A DNA stretch of 64,000 nt from Tridacna crocea (taxonomy: Eukaryota; Mollusca; Bivalvia; Cardiida; Cardiidae), in contig OX031061.1 in the NCBI GenBank assembly GCA_943736015.1, positions 65,230,192-65,294,191 of the forward strand, given 5' to 3'. Of this stretch, positions 9,045 through 55,599 are shown piece after piece (the first letter of the stretch is position 1; each line of letters opens with the position of its first letter). The notes beneath the pieces were generated by a model, which worked only from the letters and a program-made list of their open reading frames with translations, did not search any database and was not told where the DNA came from. The position numbers and the translations under genes were made by a program.

Positions 9045-9102
9045 TGTTACGGGACACCACTCCTTCATGCATGGCTTCGTCCCGGTTAAAATACAATATC
9101 TT
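9045..9102 (+). mobile_element. Truncated LTR start of the TRIM family
   Basis: TGTTACGGGACACCACTCC, then CATGCATGGCTTCGTCCCGG and AAAATACAATAT match the first ~57 bp of the LTR at 9876. The tRNA-like part is absent. Confidence 0.65.
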
Positions 9103-9285
9103 GCTCCTGGTCAACGTTACTGCCCCTGTCAATTTTACGTACCCGCTCGAGTAAAAAACATGGCTGCGCCCACAATATTACACAAGGTAAGTACAAAAAC
9201 ATATTTTTTTTAACATGTTATTGAATAGATATGCAGTTGCAGGTTGTCGCACGGAATGTCTGGGATGTCAGTGCACGTTAATCTT
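9085..9285 (+). repeat. Dispersed segment with ATG and splice-donor-like site
   Basis: Contains CTTGCTCCTGGTCAACG, then ATGGCTGCGCCCACAATA, CACAAG and GTAAGTAC, then GCACGGAATGTCTGGGATGTCAGTGCAC. A reversed relative lies at 14700-14872, with the donor-like GTAAG kept but the ATG not. The left edge overlaps the LTR scrap. Confidence 0.45.
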
Positions 9286-9796: not shown

Positions 9797-9875
9797 TTAA
9801 CTCATTACCAAACGACAATATTTTAGACTGGTCCAAATTGAAAGCATTTGCAGACGACAAAATAATAGTGACTGA

Positions 9876-10080
9876 TGTTATGGGTGACCACTCCTTCCTG
9901 CATGGCATACTCCCGATTTAAATACAATACCTGGCTACTGCGTCAGAGAGATATCTCTTTGGCTCAGTGGTTAGGGTATTGGCTTTGCGTCCGGGAGTTC
10001 GGAGTTCGAATCCCGCTCCGATCCTTATTTCTGCCATGCATTTATTCATTTGTTTCTTTGTTACGGACTTTGTTCGTAAG
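9876..10080 (+). repeat. Left LTR of the TRIM
   Basis: Starts TGTTATGGG and ends TTCGTAAG. It has a TTTAAATA box at 9917-9924 and the tRNA-like block described separately. Open frames over it and its twin are shadows that repeat because the LTRs are identical. Confidence 0.9.
9944..10024 (+). promoter_or_regulatory. tRNA-like Pol III promoter inside the LTR
   Basis: An A box TGGCTCAGTGG at 9960-9970 and a B box GTTCGAATCCC at 10004-10014 are 33 bp apart, as in tRNA genes. Both fit the consensus for internal Pol III promoters. The block recurs in the second LTR (A box 10282, B box 10326) and, diverged, in solo LTRs at 395-1290 and 17747-17965. Flanking bases do not fold into a clean acceptor stem, so I do not call a tRNA gene. 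Confidence 0.7.
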
Positions 10081-10081
10081 A

Positions 10082-10099
10082 TGGGGGCTCGTCCGGGAT
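10082..10099 (+). promoter_or_regulatory. Primer-binding site, tRNA-Pro type
   Basis: TGGGGGCTCGTCCGGGAT is complementary to the 3' end of tRNA-Pro and is the sequence used by murine leukaemia virus. It sits one base from the left LTR, as expected. Confidence 0.88.
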
Positions 10100-10197
10100 T
10101 GGCCATTGAGCCATTAATCCCATTTGTTGTCCAAAATTGGACTTCCTGCCTAATAAGGCTTTGAGTCATCAATAAATGATGACTTTAAGAGGGGGTG

Positions 10198-10402
10198 TGT
10201 TATGGGTGACCACTCCTTCCTGCATGGCATACTCCCGATTTAAATACAATACCTGGCTACTGCGTCAGAGAGATATCTCTTTGGCTCAGTGGTTAGGGTA
10301 TTGGCTTTGCGTCCGGGAGTTCGGAGTTCGAATCCCGCTCCGATCCTTATTTCTGCCATGCATTTATTCATTTGTTTCTTTGTTACGGACTTTGTTCGTA
10401 AG
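10198..10402 (+). repeat. Right LTR of the TRIM
   Basis: Identical to the left LTR over 205 bp by direct reading. It is preceded by the purine run and followed by the ACTGA duplication. Confidence 0.9.
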
Positions 10403-10583
10403 ACTGAAAATTTTAAATTTGTTTTGTGAAGGGTAGAAAACATTGTGAGAAAAGGAGAAAATGCTGGTTACCAGCATTTTCTCCTTTTCCCACAATGTTT
10501 TCTAAAGGCTTCTTTCTCAGGGGCGTCAAAAGTAGGGATTGTGTGGTAATGGGTTAAGCTGGCAGAATCATACACCCATCGTG

Positions 10584-53910: not shown

Positions 53911-54732
53911 ATGAAAAAGCCTAGAAACCTCGTGTGGATAATATATATAAAAAACCTGGAAAGTTCGTGTGGATTATATATATGAAAAACCTAGAAAGCT
54001 CGTGTTGATTACAACAATAAAAAAGCCTTAAAAGCTCGTGTTGGTTATAACAAAGAAAACGCCTTGAAAGCTCGTGTGGATTATAACTGTAAACTTCTAG
54101 AAAACGTGTTTGGATTAAAACAATGAAAAAGCTTAGAAAGCTCGTGCAGACTATAACAATGGAAAAGCCTGGAAAGCTCGTGTGGATTATAACTATAAAA
54201 GTCTGGAAAACTCGTGTGGATTATAACTATAAAAGTCTGGAAAACTCGTGTGGATTATAACGATGTAAAAGCCTAGAAAAGTCGTTTGGATTATAACGAT
54301 GTAAAAGCCTAGAAAAGTCGTTTGGATTATAACGATGTAAAAGCTTAGAAAGCTCGTGTGGATTAGAACGATGTAAAAGCCCGGAAAGCTCGTGTGGATT
54401 ATAAGAAAGAAAAAGCCTTGAAAGCTCGTGTGGATTATAACAGTGTAAAAGCATAGAAAGCTCGTGTGGATTATAACGATGTAAAAGCCTTGAAAACTCG
54501 TGTGGATTATAAGAAAGAAAAAGCCTTGAAAGCTCGTGTGGATTATAACAGTGTAAAAGCCTAGAAAGCTCGTGTGAATTATAACGATGTAAAAGCCTAG
54601 AAAGCTCGTGTGAATTATAACGATGCAAAAAAGCCTAGAAAGCTCGTGTGGATTATAACGGTGTAAAAGCCTTGAAAGCTCGTGTGGATTATAACGGTGT
54701 AAAAGCCTGGAAAGCTCGTGTGGATTATAATA
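53911..54732. repeat. Minisatellite, 36-bp unit, ~22 copies
   Basis: Unit: AAAGCCTAGAAAGCTCGTG then TGGATTATAACGATGTA. Left units are a little longer and more varied, right units more uniform. A higher-order pattern is visible: units with AAGAAAGAAAAAGCCTTG recur at 54403 and 54511. The unit is a multiple of three, so a minus frame at 54227-54628 stays open (12-residue period NPHELSRLLHRY). I read that as a by-product. Confidence 0.9.
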
Positions 54733-55599
54733 ATAAGATTTGATACCTGTTACGTCATATCACATAATATGCTCAGAGAATTCTGAAAAAAATAATGGCT
54801 AAAAAATTGTAGATCACTTACCTCTGTTGTCATATTAAGACGAGAATATTTCTTGTTTTGGTTGCCCTTTTCTAGAACTCTAATAACATAATTCCCTCTT
54901 TCAGCTCGGCCTGTATATCCAGTTAGAATGTTCCGCGTTAATTCTTCGCTTTGGCTTTTAGATTCTAGTGTTTAAAAAGTCTTACTGGTCGTCTTATATA
55001 GAAATCTTTACTGTTGTATCATAAAGTGATGCGGATTTACCGTTTTAACCGTACCGATGTGGTCACGAAAAATATCAATCACTTTCAACAAATATAACAA
55101 AAAGTTGGCATTCAAAATGAAGCATAGAAATCTATATTTAATTCTATTTAAACTATTCAAAAAGTATTGTTTTAGATTTACTTTAAAAAATTGAAATATT
55201 AGAAATTCACTCTTTCTTCATTAAATAGTGTTTCAAAAAATGAGATAATATGGTTTGATAATTTTATAGCTGTATCGTCTTTTTATATCCTCAATGACAT
55301 GGAAAAGCGTCGGTGACATATGTACAAATTTATGTTCACTACAAACACAATGTTTATTGTCGATATCCGAGAGTCATTAATGCCTGTAACTCGATCGTTG
55401 CATGTTAAAACCCTTCTCACAATGTTTAATCACACACTTGCTCTCTCAAGATGAGCTCCCGCCGAGAAACCTCTGCAGAATACGTGCCAATAGTAGAAAG
55501 TCAGCCGCCCCTCATTGACGAGTTCACCGCTGGAATTACAGTGTAAGGAAAAATCGGTAATACAGGGACAGTTCCTGTATGGTGCTCTCTATGCCCTTG
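54733..55599. other. No feature recognised
   Basis: AT-rich spacer without open frames or repeat matches. Confidence 0.3.

Follow-up and report, generated by a model that had tools for sequence, protein, structure and literature searches.

A Helenus-kind TRIM with tRNA-like promoter boxes in its LTRs and its likely mobilisation by a Gypsy retrotransposon in Tridacna crocea

Introduction

TRIMs with an RNA polymerase III (Pol III) promoter are known by sequence, and their mobilisers have been inferred from primer sites (PMC10886601) or, for Cassandra, were called unknown in a 2020 paper (PMC7215508). Helenus and TRIMp3 were defined by Kojima in 2024 (PMC10886601), who describes Helenus as TRIMs with a tRNA-like promoter in the LTR, 311–1263 bp in length, with 51 bivalve families (the bivalves listed there being from Pteriomorphia), tRNA-Pro primer sites matching Gypsy-13_CGi and, in animal families, 4-bp duplications. 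By Kojima's own account, Pol III transcription of Helenus is generally unproven. Plant Cassandra elements, as described, are TRIMs that carry a 5S rRNA promoter and Pol III terminators in the LTR and form tandem arrays (PMC7215508, PMC10853983), and putative TRIM partners are known in plants (Gao 2016, PMC4717578). The bivalve biv-TRIM is described with repeats of ~200 bp, solo and tandem forms, and an interior of 77–80 bp without a clear primer site (Satovic 2019, PMC6934838); the Results and Discussion of that paper do not mention a tRNA promoter in the repeats.

Here we analysed a 64,000-nt stretch of the T. crocea genome (the window) and followed up a TRIM found in it. Judged by its features rather than by a match to a named family, this TRIM is a member of the already published Helenus kind: two short LTRs enclose a short non-coding interior (206 + 116 + 206 bp, within the Helenus range), the LTRs carry A and B boxes, a tRNA-Pro primer site, a purine tract and a 4-bp target-site duplication (TSD) are present, and a Gypsy element is the suspected mobiliser. 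It differs in that the animal Gypsy link described for Helenus consists of primer-site similarity and TSD length, whereas here Gypsy has recombined with the TRIM. An LTR hairpin, a terminator analysis and such recombinants are not mentioned in the Results or Discussion of the Helenus paper (PMC10886601), and we found no report of TRIMp3/partner recombinants in a literature judged mainly from titles and the beginnings of abstracts. The TRIM resembles Cassandra in its LTR promoter and its tandem forms; in contrast to Cassandra it is an animal element without a 5S rRNA promoter, as no Rfam match of any kind was obtained in it. It resembles biv-TRIM in repeat length and in its forms, and differs in its 116-bp interior, its 18-nt primer site and its purine tract. 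New here are the likely mobiliser and the TRIM/Gypsy recombinants, a contrast between substitutions in the boxes before and after insertion, and a hairpin around the A box that is kept in an older family.

Results

Structure of the element in the window

The forward strand of the window contains one complete TRIM, consisting of an LTR, an interior and a second LTR with CTGA on both flanks (9872–9875 and 10404–10407, assigned from the sequence and, for the left copy, from the 4-bp rule of the family). Its 5΄ LTR (9876–10081), delimited from the sequence and from family copies, and its 3΄ LTR (10198–10403) are 206 bp long, and direct comparison confirmed that they are identical, as an earlier, sequence-only reading of the window had stated. 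The 116-bp interior (10082–10197) is too short to code. The primer-binding site TGGGGGCTCGTCCGGGAT (10082–10099) directly adjoins the first LTR, and the polypurine tract AAGAGGGGGTG (10187–10197) lies right before the second, both as noticed earlier. We take the primer to be tRNA-Pro, since the 18-mer is that of the MLV site. Exact copies of this 18-mer number 2790 in the genome, and the reversed control has none.

That reading had given the LTRs 205 bp, the interior 117 bp and the element a 5-bp duplication, all of which had to be corrected. The final A of the LTR had been omitted: the LTR ends in ...CGTAAGA, and an A follows GTAAG in 37 of 37 rows of the family copies examined. The duplication is 4 bp (CTGA) and appeared to be 5 bp because this last A paired with a chance A upstream.

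By consensus match, the 5΄ LTR carries an A box (TGGCTCAGTGG) at 9960–9970 (LTR positions 85–95) and a B box (GTTCGAATCCC) at 10004–10014 (LTR positions 129–139). Their starts are 44 nt apart, and the pair recurs 322 bp downstream in the identical 3΄ LTR (A box 10282–10292, B box 10326–10336), which agrees with the tRNA-like spacing first reported for both LTRs.

Shortly 3΄ of the TRIM lies a near-perfect 35-nt inverted repeat (10434–10504), which is a dispersed short fold-back repeat; resembling copies are found in loci L074 and L078, where they give sub-threshold Rfam matches to microRNA precursors, and in L014 and L046, where they occupy insertion points. On the minus strand at 54193–54759, a frame encodes a short peptide (YNPHELSRLLHR-like) many times over in nearly identical form and corresponds to a tandem DNA repeat.

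Copies of the TRIM in the genome

All copies analysed came from one genome (1.05 Gb, 31 contigs). The exact junction of LTR end, primer site and interior occurs 1550 times in it and never in the reversed control. We compared 94 LTR pairs, about half of the loci having been chosen by similarity to the window copy and the remainder by the primer site alone; 200 of 239 LTR copies were used after exclusion of LTRs below 88% identity or not of full length. Full copies with paired LTRs are thus present in the element's own genome, as anticipated, but their duplications are not of the anticipated 5 bp: an exact 4-bp TSD was found in 81 of 93 testable pairs and an exact 5-bp TSD in one. The two LTRs were identical in 31 of the 94 pairs and differed by at least four variants in 26, with a mean difference of 2.8 variants. 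Because so many pairs are identical or nearly so, amplification was recent; the TRIM is real, young and recently active. Tandem copies of the form LTR-interior-LTR-interior-LTR also occur.

Older relatives of the TRIM

An older related family, with 4423 candidates at first look, has LTR tips resembling those of the young TRIM, boxes, and a longer block between the boxes; among the matches listed, other near-full-length copies were 80–86% alike. By sequence comparison, the window holds a solo LTR of this family on the minus strand (17965–17747), 69% alike to the young LTR, with the longer tRNA-like block, decayed boxes (TAGCTCCGTGG and GGTTCTAATCC) and no primer site after it. Two further minus-strand pieces, a 5΄ part at 1290–1225 (LTR positions 6–71) and a 3΄ part at 531–395 (LTR positions 70–206), are apparently one old LTR split by an insertion of ~0.7 kb (532–1224); its A box is badly decayed and its B box has one mismatch. 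The earlier statement that the block persists in two old solo LTRs stands in that both retain boxes, but these are imperfect or decayed and the second LTR is apparently split. A plus-strand fragment at 9045–9113 covers only LTR positions 1–70 and is followed by unrelated sequence. Among 12 fetched loci of the older family, the first 11 bases of the primer site follow the LTR exactly in two (L071 and L080), with one mismatch in L081 and two in L079.

Conservation of the tRNA-like promoter boxes

Both box consensuses were retained in 102 of 109 full-length LTRs (at least 88% identity); of the remaining seven, six carry point mutations within a box and the seventh has been shortened. Since the older family keeps boxes too, the boxes are a trait of the family, as the sequence-only reading had held, and their retention in the LTRs across the family supports its view of the element as an animal tRNA-promoter counterpart of Cassandra. 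Among the copies examined, LTRs lacking the boxes were found only as truncated or decayed copies and as the recombinant 5΄ LTR of locus L143, described below. We compared 14 old-family copies with the young LTR and obtained identities of 0.84 for the A box and 0.86 for the B box, compared with 0.28 for the spacer at LTR positions 108–128. Other well-kept stretches were the 5΄ tip (0.85) and a TATA-like stretch (0.89).

The block could instead be a separate SINE that was inserted by chance in some LTR copies. Kojima proposes that Helenus arose anciently through the insertion of a SINE (PMC10886601), and a query with the block alone returned no candidates, for which words too common in the genome would account. 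However, the region lies at the same place in all 109 full-length LTRs and in the older family, and the examined copies gave no indication that a SINE is restricted to the LTR of this sublineage. Moreover, box pairs with tRNA-like spacing occur 4448 times in the genome (none in the reversed control), and the 100 listed matches, judged without their surroundings, mostly have either this family's short block or a longer one resembling the block of the older family. We consider a chance SINE insertion very improbable.

The block is called promoter-like only, because neither Rfam nor ARAGORN identified a tRNA: in Rfam, neither young nor old copies matched a tRNA even at an E value of 10, and the nearest match of any kind was a 15-nt tmRNA end in one old copy (L075, E = 0.37), while ARAGORN found no tRNA gene within the window. 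By eye, an anticodon arm resembling that of tRNA-Lys(UUU) can be recognised in the old-family block.

We then compared substitutions found in both LTRs of a pair, which are probably older than the insertion because the two LTRs of a TRIM are copied from one template, with those found in one LTR only, which are later; after insertion, a copy need no longer work. Leaving out variants present in more than half of the LTRs, 1 of 51 pre-insertion and 13 of 98 post-insertion substitutions fell in the boxes (Fisher's exact test, P = 0.035), and the sole earlier one, G to A at LTR position 86, is compatible with the A-box consensus. When CpG sites were excluded, the counts were 1/45 and 10/78 (P = 0.054), and under earlier or narrower definitions of 'after insertion' they were 1/39 and 5/43 (P = 0.20) or 1/55 and 7/66 (P = 0.07). 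Across all possible placements of two 11-mers in the LTR, and with the narrower count, the earlier substitutions were as few in 2.7% and the contrast was at least as large in 12.6%. In exact 11-mer retention, the A box ranked 65th and the B box 18th of 196. A combined P-value of 0.006 for boxes or T4 runs was discarded, since it mixes counts. These results modestly support constraint on the boxes, and, together with the old-family identities, they suggest that the boxes are more than a relic; the polymerase that would use them can only be inferred.

A hairpin around the A box

The A box lies in the 3΄ arm of a 90-nt imperfect inverted repeat that is predicted to fold into an RNA hairpin in the sense strand (LTR positions 34–123; 9909–9998 in the 5΄ LTR and, by fold and LTR identity, 10231–10320 in the 3΄ LTR). 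The fold has 38 pairs and a free energy of –48.8 kcal/mol (z = –8.1), compared with –28.9 for the complementary strand. Its 5΄ arm repeats the half-block of the 3΄ arm in inverted and diverged form; the differences between the arms comprise seven G-U pairs, no A-C oppositions and four other mismatches. The tip, AGAGATATCTCT, is self-complementary.

In the 14 old-family copies, 25 core pairs were kept in 310 of 350 cells (0.886), compared with 0.35–0.53 when the partner was slid by one to three columns, a comparison that favours the hairpin over its slid versions in that the structure was modelled on the young copy. All 38 pairs were kept in 418 of 532 cells. Six core pairs differ between the families in their commonest state, and five of these still pair, one having changed on both sides. 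Single old copies folded with z values from +0.2 to –6.0. Selection on the hairpin within the young family was not supported, the keep/break counts being 5/8 before and 6/9 after insertion in the first 51 pairs. The hairpin is thus an inherited structure. With its self-complementary tip, the modelled hairpin may place the A box within a packaging or dimerisation signal of the RNA.

Head-to-head inverted copies of the tRNA-like block were observed in L041 (1243–1500; C1:415811–416068) and at C1:8529235–8529424, and look as if produced by hairpin-primed fold-back synthesis.

A Gypsy family sharing the primer site

From the 100 primer sites listed on contig C1, among the 2790 in the genome, we fetched 94, of which 72 are copies of this TRIM, 21 are members of a single larger LTR family and one is a recombinant; three TRIMs with an altered LTR end and the recombinant were scripted as 'other' and assigned by eye, and in the larger family seven copies were compared over ~2 kb, whereas the LTR end alone served to place the remaining 14. 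One larger copy (C1:115534–123660) has 562-bp LTRs that are 99.3% alike and the TSD TCAT. Its gag contains a SCAN domain and gives a zinc-knuckle match below the cutoff, and its integrase lies ahead of the reverse transcriptase (RT) and RNase H; SCAN also occurs in a second copy (L054), and one copy was read through to RT. From its SCAN-type gag and the position of integrase before RT, we take the family to be a Gmr1-like Gypsy.

The TRIM and the Gypsy share the primer site (from which point onwards they agree at 41 of 51 aligned positions), the LTR tip TGTTATG and the 4-bp TSD, and their polypurine tracts are similar. Their LTR bodies gave no alignment, and the Gypsy LTR contains TATAAAA at 201, AATAAA at 495 and seven T4 runs. 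These sequence features suggest that the Gmr1-like Gypsy of the same genome is the likely mobiliser of the TRIM.

Recombinants between the TRIM and the Gypsy

A TRIM LTR end and primer site joined to the Gypsy leader was found at 12 sites in the genome and at none in the reversed control. In all of the eight sites fetched, the primer site is preceded by a TRIM LTR, and in seven it is followed by a long match to the Gypsy leader or gag, the match in L149 being only 17 nt; the fetched pieces of L145 and L151 stop short of the 3΄ end, and the far end of L147 and the other four junction sites lie outside this sample. Matching 4-bp TSDs flank five of the six recombinants in which both outer ends are readable.

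Several arrangements were observed. L148 and L150 consist of a TRIM LTR, ~0.75 kb of Gypsy leader and gag, a TRIM interior and a TRIM LTR, with the TSDs ACGT (L148) and ATAG (L150, around a tandem form), and in both the switch lies just after the TRIM primer site. L144 comprises a TRIM LTR, Gypsy leader, part of a Gypsy LTR, a TRIM interior and a TRIM LTR (TSD CTTG). In L146, a TRIM LTR is followed by Gypsy leader, gag and the beginning of pol (TSD ATGG), and with L153 (C3:5764879–5771752) a TRIM LTR is represented by its final 22 nt 6.9 kb downstream; judged from both ends, an autonomous-type Gypsy interior is apparently housed here under tRNA-promoter LTRs. L143 is of another form: its 5΄ LTR joins TRIM positions 1–82 to Gypsy positions 385–562 and so lacks the boxes, and a TRIM interior and a TRIM 3΄ LTR follow (TSD ATCT). 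By eye, the joint between the LTR bodies shares ~2 nt, and a template switch in plus-strand synthesis could explain it. The use of this joint as a marker of the Gypsy start site was dropped, the Gypsy LTR having TATAAAA at 201 and AATAAA at 495.

Such recombinants might also arise by ectopic DNA recombination or gene conversion and would then be uninformative on joint packaging. Tandem LTR arrays are common in this genome, and the complex structure of L149 has no matching TSD at its outer ends, both of which would fit such an origin. However, the matching TSDs in five of six recombinants indicate that those five were each inserted as one molecule, the L143 joint offers little shared sequence, and the switch in L148 and L150 is placed as expected for a reverse transcriptase halted at an annealed primer. 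We therefore regard DNA-level exchange as improbable; insertion as one molecule makes exchange during reverse transcription in a common particle the most likely origin.

Terminators and the polymerase

In the sense strand, the LTR and interior contain 12 TTT runs and no T4. Dinucleotide shuffles had a mean of 3.3 T4 runs (P(0) = 0.005) and mononucleotide shuffles a mean of 2.7 (P(0) = 0.038), for a count that was conceived after the sequence had been seen. TTTT occurred in 5 of the 200 LTR copies, always in one LTR of the pair only, and in 12 of 14 old-family copies. Substitutions making a T4 numbered one before insertion (1.7 expected) and two after it (2.9 expected), counts that are too small.

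L148 and L150 lie on different contigs, have an identical recombinant junction and contain eight and seven runs of at least T4, one of them T5. If both derive from one recombinant, an RNA passed these runs, as could happen with Pol II, with leaky termination by Pol III or with transcription reading in from outside; this apparently copied lineage argues against strict use of Pol III.

These runs bear on the possibility that the element is a Helenus-like TRIM transcribed by Pol II, its boxes being relics of the founding tRNA-SINE insertion that are kept because the DNA serves another need, for example in the hairpin or as the R region. It would agree with this that TTTAAATA lies upstream, that the interior contains AATAAA (10171–10176), and that LTR positions 61–84, just upstream of the A box, where a Pol III start would fall, appear at least as constrained as the boxes (one substitution before and 17 after insertion, in a window picked after looking). 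However, the B box lies outside the hairpin and shows no substitution before and eight after insertion, the spacer at 108–128 has diverged between old and young LTRs while the boxes stay, and neither AATAAA in the LTR nor T4 in the LTR or interior was found. We judge Pol II use to be unlikely, though less so than the SINE and DNA-exchange explanations. Pol III transcription of the TRIM, which we prefer, is inferred from these sequence features.

Discussion

We consider it probable that the TRIM, a non-autonomous LTR retrotransposon belonging to the Helenus kind, is transcribed by Pol III and mobilised by a Gypsy. Its RNA would most likely be started by Pol III from the A/B-box promoter of the 5΄ LTR, at a point expected ~10 nt before the A box, and the polymerase would read through the short element, which has no T4 run in the sense strand. 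The RNA would then enter particles of the co-resident Gmr1-like Gypsy, where tRNA-Pro would prime it and copying would proceed with the usual two strand transfers. The Gypsy integrase would finally insert the copy with a 4-bp duplication. Joint packaging, the polymerase and the start site enter this scheme as its presumed steps, as would any role of the hairpin.

More tentatively, a Pol III RNA may be packaged by a Gypsy element as the genome of a parasite, exchange may have re-housed the Gypsy coding body within tRNA-promoter LTRs (L146, read at both ends), and the hairpin may serve as a signal; we regard this combination as possible but rather doubtful.

Recombinants with intact TSDs are physical evidence, from one genome, of the partnership between a TRIM and a Gypsy, and comparing changes before and after insertion provides a way to test a promoter from sequence alone. 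Together they make it a testable question whether a Pol III transcript can serve as the genome of an LTR retrotransposon.
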